Shown here: positions 3,333-63,250 of the stretch, piece after piece
Position numbering within the stretch: position 1 is the first letter of the stretch
Layout of the letters: each line of letters begins with the position of its first letter
Assembly: GCF_000981585.1 (NCBI RefSeq)
Contig: NZ_LN831776.1
Span: forward strand, 635,001 to 699,000
Length of the DNA: 64,000 bases
Origin: Paenibacillus riograndensis SBR5
GTDB taxonomy: Bacteria; Bacillota; Bacilli; Paenibacillales; Paenibacillaceae
Direction: 5' to 3'
Notes under the pieces: generated by a model
Database searches by the model: none
The model's input: the letters and a program-made list of their open reading frames with translations, nothing else
What the model was told of the DNA's origin: nothing
Made by a program: the position numbers and the translations under genes

Positions 3333-3550
3333 CTATATAGAGTGAACTTGAAAAACTAACAAAAGGGAAAAGGGATGGAGGGGAAGTTTGGAACTGTAGG
3401 AGCGGTAGCGTCCGCCTTTGTCTGCGGATTTCTACCGCGAACAACGGTAACAATCAAGAAATCTGCAGACAACAGCGGCCGGAAGTCCAAACATTCTCCG
3501 GAGTCCCGACGAAGTCCCTAATGTTAATATCTTAAGTTCACTCTATATAG
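3333..3550. repeat. Structured intergenic element with 17-bp terminal inverted repeats, copy 1
   Basis: A 218-bp MITE-like unit. The left end CTATATAGAGTGAACTT (3333-3349) is repeated exactly in inverted orientation at 3534-3550. Inside, an imperfect hairpin core runs from GTTTGGAACTG (from 3385) to AGTCCAAAC (to about 3493). The core has an outer stem (CTTTGTCTGCGGATTTC pairing with GAAATCTGCAGACAACAG) and an inner stem (ACCG/CGGT). No reading frame of note and no transposase. A second copy at 4110-4310 keeps the core but changes paired bases together. Confidence 0.75.
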
Positions 3551-3733
3551 GTGGAAAAAGGGAGCTTAATTTGTGCGTTTATAAGGTTTTTGGGCATTTA
3601 GGTGGAAAAAGTATGCTTAATTTGCTCTATTTATTCATTTTTTTGTTTTGGGGCTTGGATTAAGTCTACTTTTTCCCACATAAGATGAGCTGGAAGCTGA
3701 ATCTGACGAATTAGTGATCCTTTTTCCACTTAG
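3549..3733. repeat. Four-palindrome array, family A, locus 1
   Basis: Two forward modules of the type GTGGAAAAAGGGAGCTTAAT (3551, 3602; 51 bp apart) are followed by two reverse modules ending CTTTTTCCCAC (3677) and CTTTTTCCAC (3727; 50 bp apart). Each module is an imperfect palindrome, ideally AAGTG...(C)ACTT, about 25 bp long. The array abuts the right end of the structured element at 3550. Same order and spacing occur at five other gaps in the window. Confidence 0.75.
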
Positions 3734-3830
3734 GAAGACGCGCGGGTCAGGACCAGAACCGCTGCGGGAGGGTCAAGATGAGAAGACCAAGATGAGCGCG
3801 CGTGGTATCTGCCGAAAAGCCACACTCAAT

Positions 3831-4109: not shown

Positions 4110-4310
4110 ATTTGAACTTTGAAACCGGATTAAGGGTGAAGCAGCGGAGGGGAAGTTTGGAACTGTAGGAGCGGCAGCGTTCGCCTTTGTATCCGGATTT
4201 CATCCGCTAAAGCGGTATAAATCAAGAAATCTGGATACAACAGCGACCGGAAGTCCAAACATTCCCCGCAGTTGCGCTCTTGCCCTTAATCAAAGCTTTC
4301 ACCTTCAAAT
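4110..4310. repeat. Structured intergenic element, copy 2
   Basis: The core from about 4153 (GTTTGGAACTGTAGGAGCGG) to about 4260 (GGAAGTCCAAAC) matches copy 1 closely. The ends are a different inverted repeat: ATTTGAA...GGATTAAGGG on the left and CCCTTAATC...TTCAAAT on the right. In the core stems the paired bases differ from copy 1 in a compensatory way (CTGC with GCAG in copy 1; ATCC with GGAT here), indicating selection or constraint on pairing. Confidence 0.7.
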
Positions 4311-11899: not shown

Positions 11900-12096
11900 T
11901 TAGTGGGAATTAGTACAACTAATTTGACGGAATTGTGCTCTTTTTTTGAATTAGGTGGAAAAAGGGAGCTTAAATTTTCAGCGAACAGCGAATTTGGAGA
12001 TATTTTAACGATTACAGAGAATTTAAGTGGACAAATTCCCACTAAATGCGGATGAAGTTTGTTATGAGAAGAATTAGTGGGAGAAATTCCACCTAT
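11900..12096. repeat. Four-palindrome array, family A, locus 2
   Basis: Fills most of the 410-bp gap between the response regulator and the acetyltransferase. Forward modules have GGA at 11906 and 11957 (51 bp); reverse modules have CCA at 12039 and 12089 (50 bp). The modules are more diverged (GTGGGAATTAGTACAACTAA; GTGGAAAAAGGGAGCTTAAA; AAGTGGACAAATTCCCACT). The central gap is about 10-11 bp longer than in the other loci, that is, one helical turn. Confidence 0.65.
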
Positions 12097-12155
12097 CCTC
12101 TCAAATTGCAGAGGAGTAGATTCACAGGTATAGAAAGCTGAGGTGGAACATTCGA

Positions 12156-15297: not shown

Positions 15298-16203
15298 TCA
15301 CTTCTCCATATAATCTGCAATCTGCTGCGGCAGATTGTTCAGGGCATCCAGGCGCAGGCTGTAGGACGCGCTTTTGCCGCTGGTATGGACAATGACCAAT
15401 CCAGCCGAGCGCAGCGTGATGAGATGGTAGTGGATTGTGCTTTTGGACAGGCCGACCTGCCGGACGATTTCAGTGAACCCCAGCTGCTTCCCGGCCAGCA
15501 GGCGGAGAATGTAGAGCCTTGTCTCGTCCGAGAGCGCCCGCGTTAGCCGCAGCAGCGAAGGAGCGGGCCGCCCCTCCTCCGGAGGCAGCGCGTCACAGGC
15601 ATAGCTGGTAAACACAAATTCATCATATAACGAAGAGGTGACCAGCGGGCGGGCATGGTACTGCGGGATCAGTATGATCTGCTTCAATCGTTCGCCGGGA
15701 TGCAGCCGCATTCCCTGTGTCGCCTGTTCGTAGACCTCCAAAGCATTAGTGCCGTTCAATCCGGCCCGCCTGGAGTCTGCCTCCCGGCTCAGCGAGTCTA
15801 GAATAGCGGGATTGATGTCCCGGAAGTACCGTTCATTCCATTCCCGCAGAACCCCGGAGGCTTGGCTGCGCATATCGGTGAGACTAGACGGAACCGTTGA
15901 TCCGAAGCGTGCAGTAATTTCGAACAATTCTCCCGGAGAGAGGCCGTCGAACCAATCCAGGAAACCGGATACTGAACGGTCGCCAGGGCAGCTCCATATG
16001 TATGGGGTGAGCGTGAAATCGGCATTTTCCCTGGAGAACTCCTGCATGTTCCGAAGCTGGGCCGTGGTAAATCTCTTCTGAACCTCCTTAACCCAGAGCT
16101 TGCCGGACTCCAGAGCGTTATGATTCTGCCTGCCCAGGAAAGCAGTTAAACTGGTGAAGCATTCATACATAGGGGCAAAATCCACTTCTACCTTATAATC
16201 CAT
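15298..16203 (-). CDS. ArsR-type winged-helix regulator
   Basis: 301 residues. The C-terminal third holds a typical ArsR helix-turn-helix: DETRLYILRLLAGKQ, then FTEIVRQVGLSKSTIHYHL (recognition helix) and the wing SGKSASYSLR. The first 190 residues are a separate alpha-helical domain unknown to me, found in longer ArsR-like proteins of Firmicutes. No metal-binding Cys pair (CxC) is visible, so an organic ligand or protein signal is more likely than arsenic. It precedes the MFS gene and probably controls it and itself through the palindrome at 16327. Confidence 0.85.
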   Translation of the reverse strand: MDYKVEVDFAPMYECFTSLTAFLGRQNHNALESGKLWVKEVQKRFTTAQLRNMQEFSRENADFTLTPYIWSCPGDRSVSGFLDWFDGLSPGELFEITARFGSTVPSSLTDMRSQASGVLREWNERYFRDINPAILDSLSREADSRRAGLNGTNALEVYEQATQGMRLHPGERLKQIILIPQYHARPLVTSSLYDEFVFTSYACDALPPEEGRPAPSLLRLTRALSDETRLYILRLLAGKQLGFTEIVRQVGLSKSTIHYHLITLRSAGLVIVHTSGKSASYSLRLDALNNLPQQIADYMEK

Positions 16204-16592: not shown

Positions 16593-16611
16593 ACAGGTAG
16601 CCGCAGGTAAG

Positions 16612-16800
16612 TGAAGTGGAAATAGTACACTTAAATAAACGGAAAAACCTCCTGAAAAAGGAATAGTGGGAAAAAGTAGAGTTAATTTGGGCTTAATCAC
16701 GGGTGGGCGGGGAAATTGGTCGGATTAGGTACCCTTTTTCCAACTAACGTTTGCGGGGAAGTGGGAGAAGGAAGATTTAGGTTTACTTTTTCCACTTAAG
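16612..16800. repeat. Four-palindrome array, family A, locus 3
   Basis: Forward modules AAGTGGAAATAGTACACTTA (GGA at 16618) and AGTGGGAAAAAGTAGAGTTA (16669) are 51 bp apart; reverse modules have CCA at 16740 and 16792, 52 bp apart. The first module is the best palindrome of the family: AAGTG...CACTT. The gap between second and third modules (71 bp from GGA to CCA) equals that of loci 4-6. Confidence 0.75.
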
Positions 16801-25526: not shown

Positions 25527-25649
25527 ATTTATTTTTAGGAAATTATGATTACTTCCGCTTGTGGATAAAATGTGCATAAAGTTGGGGGAGCAGTCGGTCT
25601 AGATATCCTAATTCCACCTAGCGCTTGCTCACCGGCTTCTTCGCAAGCG

Positions 25650-25840
25650 CTAGTTGGAAAAAGGGAACTTATTTCTCCCCAAAATCAACAATTATGAGAT
25701 TTAAGTGGAAAAAGGAAACTTAATTGGTCCATATTACCTCGTCAGGGGCGAAATGAGCTGAATTAGTGATCCTTTTTCCACTTAAGCTGCGGAGAGCAGG
25801 TAGTGTCGAGCAAATTAGTTACCCTTTTTCCACTTAGAGT
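25650..25840. repeat. Four-palindrome array, family A, locus 4
   Basis: Forward modules AGTTGGAAAAAGGGAACTTA (GGA at 25656) and AAGTGGAAAAAGGAAACTTA (25707), 51 bp apart; reverse modules with CAC at 25779 and 25831, 52 bp apart. Second-to-third distance is 72 bp from GGA to CAC. Nearly the same spacer words (ATCAACAATT, GGGGCGAAATGAGCTGAATT) occur in locus 5 at 35.7 kb, so the whole 190-bp unit has been copied, not only the modules. Confidence 0.85.
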
Positions 25841-25985: not shown

Positions 25986-26083
25986 AGCAAGTAGTTTTGA
26001 AGTGCAGGGGCTGGAGCCTTAAATTGGCTGTGCGGATCTTCAGCGTCATCATCAGGGTCCAGCTTGGGCCCGCACTAATTAGT

Positions 26084-26282
26084 TTTATTGCATTCTGTGC
26101 AGCAGAATCTCCTCTGGGAGTACTGGAAATCAATTCAATTGCACATTGTGCAGCAGAATGTGGCGGATACGCCTCAAAAGTGCCATTTGGCGAAAATCTG
26201 CTGCATGAAATTCAACGGATCGCTTTTTTATGCCGGAATTGGGCCAATCTGCTGTACGAAATACAACAGATCGTCTTTTAGA
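26084..26282. repeat. Four-palindrome array, family B
   Basis: Two modules GTGCAGCAGAAT at 26097 and 26148 (51 bp apart) are followed by two reversed modules ATCTGCTG at 26196 and 26247 (51 bp apart). The last module, ATCTGCTGTACGAAATACAA, then CAGAT, is a good palindrome with a 10-bp stem. Same forward-forward-reverse-reverse order as family A with an unrelated sequence. Lies between the FMN reductase and the nrdB stop. Confidence 0.65.
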
Positions 26283-27555: not shown

Positions 27556-27752
27556 GTAGATAAATGTATTTACTGCAGCTATTTACTGCTGTGGAGCCTT
27601 TTCATGAGCTATAACTGTAGTTTCTGCAATTAAAAATAGAGAATTTCTGCAATTTAGCCGCTGTCCGCCTGGATAATTGTACAGAGTGCAGCTAAATTGT
27701 GTTTATCTGCCAAAAGCCAGGTTATAGCTGTACAAAGTGCAGTTATTTGGCA
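27556..27752. repeat. Four-palindrome array, family C
   Basis: Modules with conserved TGTA...TGCA: TGCAG at 27574, TGCAA at 27625, TGCAG at 27687 and at 27738. Spacings are 51, 62 and 51 bp. The last module, TAGCTGTACAAAGTGCAGTT, is a clear palindrome; the first two have pyrimidine loops (TTTAC, GTTTC), the last two purine loops (AGAG, AAAG), which suggests opposite orientation. It lies between nrdA and nrdB. Confidence 0.65.
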
Positions 27753-27774: not shown

Positions 27775-27910
27775 GAGGCGGGAAGGATCACCGAAGGCTC
27801 TGCACCGGAAAGCCTTCCGGCGCAAAACCGGCAATCCTCAGTCTAAGCTGTCTGCGGATTCCGCCGCGAACAGCGACCGGAAGCCCAGACATTCCTCGTA
27901 GTGACGAACA
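27775..27910. repeat. Structured intergenic element, decayed copy 3
   Basis: The right half (GTCTGCGGATTCCGCCGCG, AACAGCGACCGGAAGCCC, ACATTCC) matches copies at 3.3 and 4.1 kb. The left half does not, so this is a truncated or rearranged copy next to the nrdA stop codon. Confidence 0.55.
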
Positions 27911-33091: not shown

Positions 33092-33185
33092 CAGCCTTGG
33101 CTCCCTGGCATAAGGGAAGGCTAAATCTGCTTGTGCAGGCCGCATGCGGACACCTCTCCTGTTCCTCGCAGGCGTAAATAATGGT

Positions 33186-33396
33186 GCCCGGAAACAGGCA
33201 GGTCTCCTGGCTTCCGGTGAATCCGGGGCGCCTTCCCAAGGGGGGCTACCCCTCAGTGGCGTGAGCCTCAGGATACTGCTCCGCAGGGCTTCTGGAGCCT
33301 GCAGGGCATCCGGTTACAGTGGCGGGACCGCAACGGATTTGCACCGCGCTTCCCTATTAAGCTTCAACTCTCCTGGAAGAGCAAAGCACCTGTTTC
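33186..33396 (-). promoter_or_regulatory. Adenosylcobalamin riboswitch
   Basis: Read on the minus strand: the 5' part ACAGGTGCTTTG, then GGGAAGCGCGGTGCAAATCC, GCGGTCCCGCCACTGTAACC, the second GCCACTG, GGGAAGGCGCC and the B12 box AGCCAGGAGACCTGCC (plus 33190-33206). All elements of the standard cobalamin aptamer are present in order. It precedes nrdD, so the reductase operon should be shut off when coenzyme B12 is plentiful. Confidence 0.93.
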
Positions 33397-33444
33397 CACT
33401 ATATTTTGTTGTCGCTAGATAAAAATAACCCAATATCTTGTGTT
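33397..33444 (-). promoter_or_regulatory. Tandem NrdR boxes
   Basis: Two 16-bp sites, CCACTATATTTTGTTG (33397-33412) and CCCAATATCTTGTGTT (33429-33444), fit the NrdR consensus ACACWATATNTWGTG in both directions. Their centres are 32 bp apart, three helical turns, the spacing usual for NrdR. They lie directly upstream of the riboswitch, at the expected promoter. Confidence 0.8.
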
Positions 33445-35093: not shown

Positions 35094-35743
35094 TTTTATA
35101 GGAAGTTATACAGTGTAAAAAAGGATATCTTGGAAGCCTCCGAGGATAAAAGTGATGCAGGAGGGTTGAGCTTCATCCGTGGACTGAAGCGGACAAAGGA
35201 GCCCTTATTTTGCCAAAAATCTTGTTTTTTCAGCGGATACGGACTCAGGAACCGTTATATCGTTCGATTGAACCTGGAATAAAGGGGAAAAGGACAAATA
35301 AAGGCATCTCAGTCCGTCCTGCGGAATAGACGAATCTTCTATGAATAACGGCTTTCCAGTCCGCAACGGTTGCGGATCGATCGTGAAGGAAGCTCATCGT
35401 GTCCGCAGAATGACCCATACCATAATCATACGGCCCCCAATGCATGTTTTAACTAACTTCTGGGCGAGCGTTGTGCATGTGGTATAACAATATGAGCTCT
35501 AAGCAAGTCAAAGGACGCTAAGCCTGCCTATGCTGCCTATAATACAACAATCCGTCTTCAGCATACCCCCGTTGGTTTTGGAACGGCGGGGAATCCCTGC
35601 GGCCGTAAGCCCCGTGTTGTTATTCACCCGCCAGGGTGATTTTGTTCTTTTCGGGGAGATTGCAGCCCTTTTCACCTCAATAACGGATTATGTGTCCGGA
35701 TCACCTTGTATATTGCCCGTGCCAAGAAGTAGGTGAACAGTGC

Positions 35744-35931
35744 TAGTTGGAAAAAGGAAACTTATTTCTCTCAGAAATCAACAATTGTGAGATTGAAGTG
35801 GAAAAAGGGAACTTAATTGGGCCATATGACTTAGTTAGGGGCGAAATGAGCTGAATTAGTTACCCTTTTTCCACTTAACCTGCGGAGAACAGGAGATTCG
35901 GGCAAATTAGTTATCCTTTTTCCACTTGGAA
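35744..35931. repeat. Four-palindrome array, family A, locus 5
   Basis: Forward modules at GGA 35749 and 35800 (51 bp); reverse modules at CAC 35872 and 35923 (51 bp); 72 bp between GGA 35800 and CAC 35872. Spacer words are close to locus 4 (ATCAACAATTGTGAGATT; GGGGCGAAATGAGCTGAATT), showing that the two loci are recent relatives. Confidence 0.85.
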
Positions 35932-35974: not shown

Positions 35975-36165
35975 CGAAAACTTGCACGGAATACAACAAA
36001 GTGTGATATAAGCAGACCGAATGGGCGAACATCTTGTACGTTATACAACAATCTGTGTCCAAAGTACGCTAAACGTACAAAAATCTTGTGAATTGTACAA
36101 CAATGTGGGCGCGGCTTCACCAAATGGACGAAAATCCTGGATGTTATACAACAAATGCGGACTTC
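35975..36165. repeat. Tandem palindrome array, family D
   Basis: ACAACAA at 35993, 36045, 36097 and 36148: periods 52, 52 and 51 bp. Each module is a palindrome TTGTA...TACAA, best in CTTGTACGTTATACAACAA. About 25 bp of module alternate with about 26 bp of non-conserved DNA. An isolated fifth module lies at 35537. Not a CRISPR: modules differ too much and no cas genes are near. Confidence 0.65.
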
Positions 36166-48798: not shown

Positions 48799-48865
48799 GA
48801 AATTAGTTCAAAAGTAACAAATGTCATAGACTACATAAGTTTTATTTAATCTATATTTCTCATGT

Positions 48866-48950
48866 ATAAACGCAAACCGTCTGAAAGGACGGGACGCAAA
48901 GTCAGGAATCTAATGCCCGACCAGGGCTATGATCGTCCGGCCGCCGTGAA
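48866..48950 (+). promoter_or_regulatory. c-di-GMP-I (GEMM) riboswitch
   Basis: GCAAACCGTCTGAAAGGACG followed by GGGACGCAAAGTC is the diagnostic first helix of the GEMM-I aptamer (GAAA tetraloop, then GGACGCAAAG). The second helix and tetraloop receptor part is GCCCGACCAGGGCTATGATC. A terminator follows at once, and the adhesin gene starts at 49032. Confidence 0.82.
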
Positions 48951-49031: not shown

Positions 49032-51191
49032 TTGAAAAAAAGATCACTGAAAGCAGCAGCTCTGATTCTGACAGGAGTATTAGCATTGAGCAGCACGGTT
49101 ACCTGGGGATGGAATGTTAAAGCTGCGGGAAATATGCCGTATATCCCTACCCCTGTCCTGGGTGTTGCCGGCAATTTTAATGCATTTATCTTTGGAGATT
49201 TCACGCAATCTTACGATCAGATTCATGGAAGGCTCGCGGCTGAAGGAAATATTACGTTGCAGGGGTACGGTGTTTCCAAGGATGCGCCCGGCGGGGATGT
49301 GCTGGTTGCCGGCAAAAATCTCACTCTAACAGACGGAACTATATATGGGGCAGCTGTATACGGAGGCACTATAAGCACCACACGGGCGGATCTCAAGGAG
49401 ACCCCCCGCCAAGGGACGCCGATTGATTTTGCGGCCGAGGAACAGTTTTTGGTCCGGCGTTCGGATGAATTGGCCGCATTGACGCAGACACAGCCTTTTG
49501 TAAAAGAATATGGAAAAATGACGATTAACGCTCCGGATGCCTATAATGTCATTCATCTGGCCGCTGCTGATTTGGCTGACGCCAACGGGCTGCAGTTCAA
49601 CATAGCAGGTGATGCCACCGTCATTATTAATGTGGGCGGAAGCGCTGTGAAAATTCCCAATTTTCAATTCTGGGGAGGCAAACCCCGCAAAGTCCTGTTC
49701 AATTTCTATGAAGCTGCTTCTGTGAATATCGGGAACACGACAATCGAGGGCACGATATTGGCTCCTCATGCCAGTGTCTTTTATGATCATGCAGAGCTTC
49801 ATGGCACACTGATTGCAAAAGCGTTCAGCGGTTATGTACAGATGCACCACTATCCGTATGAAGGCTCCGAACCGCCTGCAACGCCGACGCCGACGCCGAG
49901 TGCGACGGCGACACCGACGCCGAGCGCAACGGCGACACCAGCGCCGAGTGCAACGGCGACACCAGCGCCGAGCGCAACGGCGACACCGACGCCGAGCGCA
50001 ACGGCGACGCCAACGCCCAGTGCGACGGTGACGCCAACGCCGAGCGCAACGGCGACACCAACGCCGACGCCGAGTGCGACGCCGACGCCGAGTGGAACGG
50101 CGACACCAGCGCCGAGTGCAACGGCGACACCGATGCCGAGTGCAACGGCGACACCGACGCCGAGTGCGACGGTGACGCCAACGCCGAGCGCAACGGCGAC
50201 ACCAACGCCGACGCCGAGTGCGACGCCGACGCCGAGTGCGACGGCGACACCGACGCCGAGTGCGACGGCGACACCAGCGCCGAGCGCAACGGCGACACCA
50301 ACGCCGAGTGCAACGGCGACGCCGATGCCGAGTGCAACGGCGACACCGACGCCGAGCGCAACGGCGACACCAACGCCGAGCGCAACGGCGACACCGACGC
50401 CGAGCGCAACGCCGACGCCGAGTGCGACGGTGACGCCAACGCCGAGCGCAACGGCGACACCAACGCCGACGCCGAGTGCGACGCCGACGCCGAGTGCAAC
50501 GGCGACACCGATGCCGAGTGCGACGCCGACGCCGAGTGCAACGGCGACACCGACGCCGAGCGCAACGGCGACACCGATGCCGAGTGCAACGGCGACGCCA
50601 ACGCCGAGTGCAACGGCGACACCAACGCCGACGCCAACGTCAAGTACGACGCCGGTACCGACATCAAGTGTAACGCCGACACCAACGTCTAGCGCGTTAC
50701 CGAGCGCCACTGCATCAGCGACGCCGACGTCGAGTACAGCACCAACTCCTACAAGCGAAGTAACACCGGCGCCATCAACAGCAACACCAACGCCAGACAC
50801 TACAGTAATCTATGTTCCGGTAACGTTCCCGACGCCAACACCATCATCGGTAATCGGCACGATTGTGGATGATACCTTGATCAATGATGACCCATTACCC
50901 TTGGGGCCAGTGTCAACGGTCGCTCCAGTGCAGCCAACAGCGCCGATACAGCCAACAGCCTCAATAGAGCCAACGCCAGCCCCTGCACCGGCCCCAACGG
51001 TAACACCGGAGCCGGAGGAAATAGTTATAACAGATGACGAAATTCCTGCTGGCAGCGTGGATACCCCCGATAAACTGCCGCAGACCGGGGAAGCAAGTCC
51101 AGCGCCTTATTATATCGCAGGTCTGGGAATCGCTGGCTTGGGACTGCTGCTTAGCAGAACTGCAAGAAACAGCGGTAAACGCAAACGGTAA
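49032..51191 (+). CDS. LPXTG cell-wall adhesin with choice-of-anchor A domain and Thr-Pro-Ser stalk
   Basis: 719 residues. TTG start at 49032 with AGGAGGTG 9 bp upstream. Signal peptide (about 1-33), then a choice-of-anchor A / collagen-adhesion-type domain (about 36-275: [49 protein letters not shown]). Residues about 280-600 are a repetitive stalk of TPTPSATA units; then a more complex Pro-rich part and the sorting signal LPQTGEASP with hydrophobic helix and basic tail RNSGKRKR. The protein is exported and linked to peptidoglycan by a sortase (not in this window). The riboswitch in front couples it to c-di-GMP, as for adhesins in biofilm formation. Confidence 0.9.
49878..50700 (+). repeat. 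Coding tandem repeat of the adhesin stalk
   Basis: About 820 bp of 6-, 18- and 24-bp units related to GCAACGGCGACACCGACGCC (plus GAGT). A longer block with [20 protein letters not shown] in the product recurs near 50010, 50165 and 50425, indicating segmental duplication on top of unit slippage. Frame is kept throughout, also on the opposite strand, where an open frame of about 300 codons is an artefact. Confidence 0.9.
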
Positions 51192-51421: not shown

Positions 51422-51499
51422 AAACAAAGGTATTTCTGCCTTTGTTTTCGTCTACCCGGCCTGAACGAGGCCAAACAAAGGCATTTCTGCCTTTGTTTC
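51422..51499. repeat. Pair of palindromes, family E
   Basis: AACAAAGGTATTTCTGCCTT, then TGTT (51423 on) and AACAAAGGCATTTCTGCCTT, then TGTT (51474 on) form hairpins with 10-bp stems and a TTTC loop, exactly 51 bp apart. The pair sits between the adhesin and the hydrolase gene. Single-base variation (T against C in the stem) is compatible with pairing. Confidence 0.75.
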
Positions 51500-52704: not shown

Positions 52705-53141
52705 TGATATGTTCCACACATGGTCTGCATTACTATCTACCAAATGCAGTTCCATGTCTTCTCCGTATATTTAATCCCCCGCCGTCCGTGAGCAAACGGG
52801 TGTCTTAATTCCTTGTTATTTCCAGCAGCCGTGTGGCGAGAATAATCCTTCCAAAACGACAAAAGCCCTACCTCTCTTTTGTCCTTACGGCTCCGTGGCC
52901 GCGCCAGTGTGAATCGGAAAACTATGTTCGAATTTAATCTCATAAAAAGGAAGAGTACTGCAAGAAAACGTAAGATTTTGTGTCCAAAATGCCGATAATA
53001 TATAAACGGGCAACGAATCGGCTTGACATCTTCTTGATGGGGATAATATATACAGTAAACAAATGTTCTTTAATTATAGCACGGGATGTAAAGAATTGCA
53101 AACAGTTAAGCTGAATGGGCAGGCTGGAAACGGGGGATCTA

Positions 53142-62861: not shown

Positions 62862-63047
62862 TAAGTGGAATTTGTACACCTAATTTTCCCGAAATCCTTG
62901 AAACAGCGGTCTTTAGTGGGAATTTATACACTTAATTCCGGAGAGTTGCCCGTTTGGCAGCCAATCTGGCCCAATTAGATGTCCTTTTTCCCACTAAAGC
63001 TGCTAAGGGAGGGAGAAGCCGCCGATTAGTTATACTTTTTCCACTCC
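62862..63047. repeat. Four-palindrome array, family A, locus 6
   Basis: Forward modules AAGTGGAATTTGTACACCTA (GGA 62867) and AGTGGGAATTTATACACTTA (62919) are 52 bp apart; reverse modules have CAC at 62992 and 63042 (50 bp). 73 bp between GGA and CAC in the middle. Modules carry AATTT where other loci carry AAAAA, yet the spacing is the same. Confidence 0.75.
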
Positions 63048-63049
63048 GT

Positions 63050-63250
63050 TCGGCTGATAAATGCCGGTTGGACGGTTGACTAGCGGATTGGCCGGTTAAC
63101 GGTCTACTGCTGCGGGAATAGCTGAACCGGACTTACCGGGTCTGCTAACCAGCAGTCTGACAGCTTGCCAGCCAACCAGCCAACCGGGGTTTGTTGACCG
63201 GCAAGCCTGCCGTTTGATAACAATCAACCGGCCAACGGTTGTCTCCGGTT
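63050..63250. repeat. Low-complexity region rich in CCGGTT/AACCGG words
   Basis: Repeated short words (GGTTGACTAGCGG, GGCCGGTTAACGG, CCAGCCAACCAGCCAACCGG, CCGGCCAACGGTTG) in both orientations. No constant period and no gene. It separates the array at 62.9 kb from the polyprenyl synthase stop. Confidence 0.5.

Follow-up and report, generated by a model that had tools for sequence, protein, structure and literature searches.

REP and REPIN elements are extragenic quasi-palindromes that occur in high copy, with an inverted pair as the dispersing unit, and in P. fluorescens SBW25 they have preferred spacings of 71 and 110 bp and some tandem clusters, according to the portions of three accounts available to us (PMC3116915, PMC3733652, PMC6006769). 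The available portion of the last of these places insertions of the IS200/IS605 family on the lagging strand (PMC6006769). Here we describe arrays of short modules in a window of 64,000 nucleotides (bases 635001–699000 of the single-contig, 7,919,576-base genome of Paenibacillus riograndensis SBR5) and in related genomes. As far as those partial accounts go, the arrays resemble REP/REPIN elements in being extragenic, quasi-palindromic and high in copy, with preferred spacings and some tandem clusters. They differ in that their unit is a 51/62/51 tetrad, that one geometry occurs with unrelated modules and that a Y1 gene is not needed. No description of them was found among the papers listed in the literature searches, which included the accessible part of PMC10789242. 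The arrays are REPIN-like repeats in kind, set apart by the geometry, the tetrad unit and the independence of Y1. By eye, neither a GTAG nor a CGTC tag is present in the consensus of family E or in the modules of family H, and where REPINs disperse as an inverted pair, the dispersing unit of E is a tetrad whose halves are inverted, and H and D are direct arrays.

Bacterial regulators can also bind helically phased operator arrays, in which palindromic sites lie approximately an integral number of turns apart. The sites of the present arrays are spaced likewise but, unlike such operators, they occur in tens to hundreds of copies by unrelated genes, combine several site sequences with one geometry and turn over in copy number. 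Our tentative reading, plausible though short of probable, is that the arrays are REPIN-like miniature dispersed non-coding repeats that act as multi-site scaffolds of duplex DNA at 5-6-5 turns, read by a putative diversifying protein or assembly.

Results and discussion

Geometry of the arrays

Array C lies at 27556–27752 (features of the window are given on its + strand) between two ORFs that we take to be nrdB and nrdA, and consists of four TGYA-N5-TRCA quasi-palindromes centred at 27571, 27622, 27684 and 27735, which gives spacings of 51.0/62.0/51.0. Array E (26083–26271), 1.5 kb away, has four modules centred at 26095, 26146, 26208 and 26259 with identical spacings (51.0/62.0/51.0), and its loops read, in order, pyrimidine-pyrimidine-purine-purine. 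Since the modules of A and D are weak palindromes, an automatic dyad finder gave scattered and unreliable values for them, and the A arrays were instead placed by hand through their aligned cores. This gives 51/62/51–52 for A1 (3546–3734; centres 3558, 3609, 3671 and 3722), A2 (16611–16800; 16623, 16674, 16736 and 16788), A3 (25648–25838; 25661, 25712, 25774 and 25826) and A4 (35741–35930; 35754, 35805, 35867 and 35918). Two further A-type arrays have four modules each: that at 11900–12100, also present in the relative G026, has differing centres and a lag of 51 between modules 3 and 4, and that at 62862–63050 contains pairs at lags of 52 and 51. Array D (35977–36160) is built of four direct TTGTAC-type modules at lags of 52/52/51, and pair F (51422–51499) of two copies of AAACAAAGGYATTTCTGCCTTTGTTT centred at 51434.5 and 51485.5 (51.0).

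An earlier note on this DNA had proposed, from spacings measured by eye, that unrelated palindrome families share a geometry near 51-62-51 bp. The shared geometry is real and tighter than those values, as C and E show, and the 52/52/51 given for D holds. The middle spacing of 56–60 reported for the E-kind array measures 62.0, and the 72 reported for the second A locus becomes 62 when taken from the cores (16674 to 16736). 'Unrelated' is too strong for C, D and E, which have TGYA-N5-TRCA in common, and apt for A, for F/G/H and for the modules of G007 and G017, whose sequences are different. Among 30 A loci fetched, representing 29 distinct arrays, the core pattern > 51–52 > 66 < 51–53 < (66 between cores is 62 between centres) occurs in 23. 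It is missing in seven: L009, L012, L021 and L028 have the second half only, L013 lacks the last core, and L014 and L015 have one extra core.

These spacings stand out from chance. A lag census of the window together with 20 stretches of 20 kb taken at even intervals (464 kb in all, of which 66 kb lie outside ORFs), in which a run was 16 of 20 bases repeated at a lag between 20 and 300, gave 19 non-coding similarity runs at lag 51 and 12 at 52, with some few pairs contributing to both, compared with a mean of 0.30 per lag and a shuffled mean of 0.025; every other lag had at most 4 runs. Direct-pair lags of 41–42 and 61–62 were at background in these 464 kb, with 0 or 1 run each. The motif common to C, D and E, TGYA-N5-TRCA, has 157 sites in 1.264 Mb, with pair distances of 51 (13 pairs), 52 (12), 62–63 (5), 103–104 (5), 113–115 (12) and 164–166 (7) where about 0.02 pairs are expected per lag, and the spacer controls N4, N6 and N7, over distances of 13 to 180 bp in the same 1.264 Mb, gave 0, 1 and 1 pairs, respectively. 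A motif-free autocorrelation of palindromes, by which the earlier note had expected a peak at 51 bp to appear, found no such peak: 145 hairpins yielded no lag with four or more pairs.

In orthologous 80-kb regions of relatives, lag 51 is on top in G052 (8 runs), G026 (6, two of which are GC-rich repeats and not palindrome arrays), G054 (5) and G030 (4), and ties with other lags at 2 in G055. It is also the top lag in a genus sample of 20 kb from each of 20 genomes, with 14 runs in 8 genomes, partly other than palindrome arrays (those of G040, G055 and G058), compared with 8 for the next lag and a mean of 0.99. A lag-42 peak in this sample was rejected as a spacing class, five of its eight runs coming from one G039 tandem repeat. 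An array in G040 has strict-motif pairs at 114 and 165, which puts its middle spacing at about 63. Repetition at 51 bp also occurs, both here and in G004, in a family that has no clear palindrome (AAAAACCGAAC...) (L044, about 13556; L205, about 15310–15480).

Dispersal, turnover and recurrence with other modules

The E module CTGCTGTATNNNGTGCAANAGA, at no more than 2 mismatches, matches 86 places in this genome, which also has 307 matches of A and 178 of H, and is matched in 69 of the 100 genomes of the genus that were scanned. Among 198 genomes taken from the order, it has 0–4 matches in each of those outside the genus, near control level. A scan for E tetrads admitted only 50–52/61–63/50–52, so its 47 tetrads are uninformative on spacing, and the free test is the distance between neighbours up to 250 bp. 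Here 67 of 68 distances fall within 1 bp of 51, 62, 113 or 164, the remaining one being 190 (29 distances from all places in G000, and 39 from the places listed in G002, G006, G008, G029 and G030). Similarity among the 14 E copies compared, one of them without module 1, spans the tetrad between the outer halves of modules 1 and 4, both included, and further out is limited to a tail common to some. The dispersal unit, about 188 bp long, is a tetrad with inverted halves. Compared with a MITE, which has terminal inverted repeats and a target-site duplication, E ends at its outer modules. The spacers of E have a mean pairwise identity of 0.38–0.43 versus 0.25–0.28 when shuffled, and given this residual homology, descent accounts for part of the spacing constancy, and the 68 distances do not count as independent. 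By eye, the spacing is retained at loci L268, L269, L278 and L282 although their spacers are different.

Family H changes in steps of 51 bp: at one and the same site this genome has 1 unit, G052 has 4, G026 has 13, G054 has 8 and G073, over the stretch that was read, has at least 3. The spacers of H are similar within one array and different between arrays. At this site in G030 a long H array is masked by N (L297), so draft genomes may under-count arrays. As the E tetrads spread by copying, with spacers that are still partly homologous, and H changes by 51-bp steps, some of the spacings are maintained by inheritance. Both observations also lend support to the alternative raised in the earlier note, a mechanism that spreads and re-seeds such arrays. 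They also bear on whether a reader is needed at all. Minisatellites or old repeats with an inherited 51-bp ruler, altered by slippage or unit recombination and dispersed as copies that carry their spacing with them, would account for the H steps, for H spacers that are alike within arrays and for E copies with common spacers. The arrays are like minisatellites (VNTRs) in that H varies in unit number at one site, and unlike them in the differing modules and 62-bp middle step of the A, C and E tetrads. We consider this explanation unlikely, given that it leaves the 62 middle, the inverted halves and the tetrads of unrelated modules in G007 and G017 unexplained, and that the four E loci named above keep their spacing despite other spacers.

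Those tetrads come from other genomes. G017 has four TTAGTTGCGAAACTGCATCTAA-type modules at 50/61/51 and G007 five modules at 51/61/50/49, in sequence unlike the other families; in both, the later modules are reversed by eye. The palindromes of F, G and H are stronger and stand in tandem at 51–52. The tetrad is thus not one repeat family. Exact matches of family A in a named genome collection comprise 32 stretches, 31 from Paenibacillus jilunlii and 1 from a MAG contig. The site of array C is occupied in G054 (92% in the neighbouring gene), and the array is absent from the same site in seven other aligned relatives, namely G052, G026 and G030 (97–98% in the neighbouring gene), G073, G027, G055 and G006.

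Pairing, folding and the proposed duplex sites

Transcribed arrays could act as RNA elements, their paired hairpins serving as terminators, attenuators or processing sites. Arrays A, C and E and the array at 11900 do fold better than shuffles (z of −4.5, −3.6, −2.1 and −2.5, respectively), but A, C and E fold well because inverted modules do so by construction, and array D folds worse than shuffles (z of +1.9). Among 32 non-redundant E tetrads, a sample biased towards E matches, there is no consistent covariation in self pairs or in the pairings m2-m3 and m1-m4, with Watson-Crick z of −2.3 to +1.4; the largest value of either sign, 2.3, is negative. A hand tally of 123 H units, read on the strand whose loop is GAAA, counts 50 pairs of the G.T type and 66 of the A.C type, with no G.T excess and no strand-specific pair bias. 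The H and D arrays are direct, the orientation of A ignores genes, and none of four Rfam matches in the window lies inside any array. These matches include a cobalamin riboswitch (33180–33408, −), a c-di-GMP-I riboswitch (48861–48948, +) and a BsrC sRNA (52846–52932, +). Taken together, we regard an RNA role as very unlikely. In the E tetrads the bases TG.A and T.CA are near-invariant, which looks as duplex half-sites might. The earlier note had preferred protein sites to RNA hairpins; the lack of pairing covariation and the unfolded D are in line with this, any protein that reads the sites being putative.

Orientation with replication

The orientation of close A and H copies follows the replication fork irrespective of genes, with exceptions. 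All 100 A copies among the matches listed (of 307), which include the 2-mismatch class only below 3.35 Mb, lie on the + strand up to 3,996,224 and on the − strand from 4,338,313, and the GC skew of this genome changes sign between 4.1 and 4.5 Mb. Among the H matches listed (100 of 178), 99 follow the same switch, and the loop of the sole exception reads almost alike on both strands. In G026 all 40 H copies among the matches listed (of 392) switch orientation once, and in G052 all 100 among those listed (of 119) fall in three blocks, both patterns being read from the orientation of the copies. Module counts at 4 mismatches are not clean, given that the A pattern then also matches the other array half. 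Crude ORF predictions at 29 A and 14 H loci show orientation to be independent of the neighbouring genes, and gene orientation was rejected on this basis as the source of the polarity. Nor is the polarity absolute: 4 of 50 H copies among the matches listed in G054 (of 92) are discordant, in two arrays. In the present genome the A array close to 4.50 Mb is discordant too, and the orientation of pair F in the window is opposite to that of H. Unlike A and H, family E is mixed in orientation.

The main rival to a scaffold on duplex DNA, ahead of inheritance without a reader and, last, RNA, is single-strand mobility linked to the fork, in which hairpin modules would be cut and pasted on the lagging-strand template by an HUH-type nuclease or another single-stranded DNA mechanism whose cutting geometry sets the 51 nt. 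The replichore pattern with its skew switch, the blocks in G026 and G052 and the indifference to genes all favour it. So does a resident IS200 that is oriented with replication in 6 of 6 copies, together with the lagging-strand insertion described for IS200/IS605 in the available part of PMC6006769. The arrays share fork-oriented copies and hairpins with IS200/IS605 and its miniature derivatives, but their module hairpins are unlike the ends of the resident IS200, H has no strand-specific pair bias, E is not polar and discordant copies occur. Moreover, 9 of 29 genomes with at least 8 E matches, some of them drafts, have no Y1 (PF01797) match, and G030 has 218 H copies and a single Y1 match that carries five stops. 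On balance we judge such mobility to be rather unlikely as the main explanation. Two narrower candidates were rejected: dependence on a RAYT (Y1), by the same E-rich genomes and the stops in G030, and the resident IS200 as the source of the modules, by the lack of resemblance between its ends and the array modules. This 761-bp IS200 (G000:C1:619090 and five other places) sits after the T-runs of terminator-like sequences.

A proposed reader of position and face

In the tentatively preferred reading, a scaffold on duplex DNA, an array comprises two to five quasi-palindromic sites, each with two half-sites round an asymmetric centre. Neighbouring centres lie about 5 turns apart (50–52 bp) inside each half, and about 6 turns (61–62 bp) where the halves of a tetrad meet. 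With such spacing every centre can lie on the same face of the helix, and a two-fold-symmetric assembly could bind. As modules turn over between families and species and the geometry stays, related proteins or one tolerant assembly probably read position and face, and selection may keep the distances beyond what copying does. This agrees with the spacings of C, E and A, with G017 and G007, with the lag peak, the TGYA-N5-TRCA distances and 67 of 68 E distances, and with the near-invariant half-sites, absent covariation, H pair tally and unfolded D. Against it, no reader protein was found, motif-free palindromes show no peak, E spacer homology makes the constancy partly descent, and duplex binding does not predict that close copies of A and H should be oriented with the fork. 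The earlier suggestion that a protein or protein family reads these sites gains from finding one geometry with different modules, also in other species, the protein itself being putative.

Helical phase, which the earlier note had claimed, is suggestive: 51 and 62 are near 5 and 6 turns of 10.3 bp. There are just two spacing classes (51–52 and 61–63) and their sums, so a fixed ruler or copying fits as well and is inseparable from phase; no spacing of 72 was confirmed, and direct-pair lags of 41–42 and 61–62 are at background. A broader form of the reading is possible yet doubtful, namely a genus-wide class of scaffolds set by architecture and not by sequence, with four dimer sites in two-fold symmetry at 5-6-5 turns, which a putative diversifying protein family would read, seed and trim, partly at the replication fork, reader and site co-diversifying like REP/RAYT with a fixed physical ruler. 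If the 51-62-51 ruler outlives replacement of its palindromes, some machine recognises or builds DNA by geometry, whether a protein of the nucleoid, a complex for transposition or a process tied to the fork. It would also mean REPIN-like spread without RAYT, and repeats whose orientation follows replication instead of genes.

Adjacent repeats

Other repeats accompany the arrays. A MITE-like repeat with 36-base inverted ends (CTATATAGAGTGAACTT...) at 3333–3550 of the window adjoins the first module of A1, and L084 has a similar one. A dispersed element of about 150 bp (GGAGGGGAAGTTTGGA...CCGGAAGTCCAAACATTC) occurs at 3363–3504, 4132–4272 and 27843–27905, and in the nrd intergenic region it has the opposite orientation in G027 and G006. 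Within a long ORF (49032–51191), a 24-base tandem repeat at 49776–50800 is variable between relatives. A arrays often lie within a larger composite, with GTGGATAAAATNATGC, which we presume to resemble DnaA boxes, and an H unit on the upstream side and, downstream, a terminator-like hairpin that is itself repeated (flanks of L005–L030; about 25550–25600 in the window).
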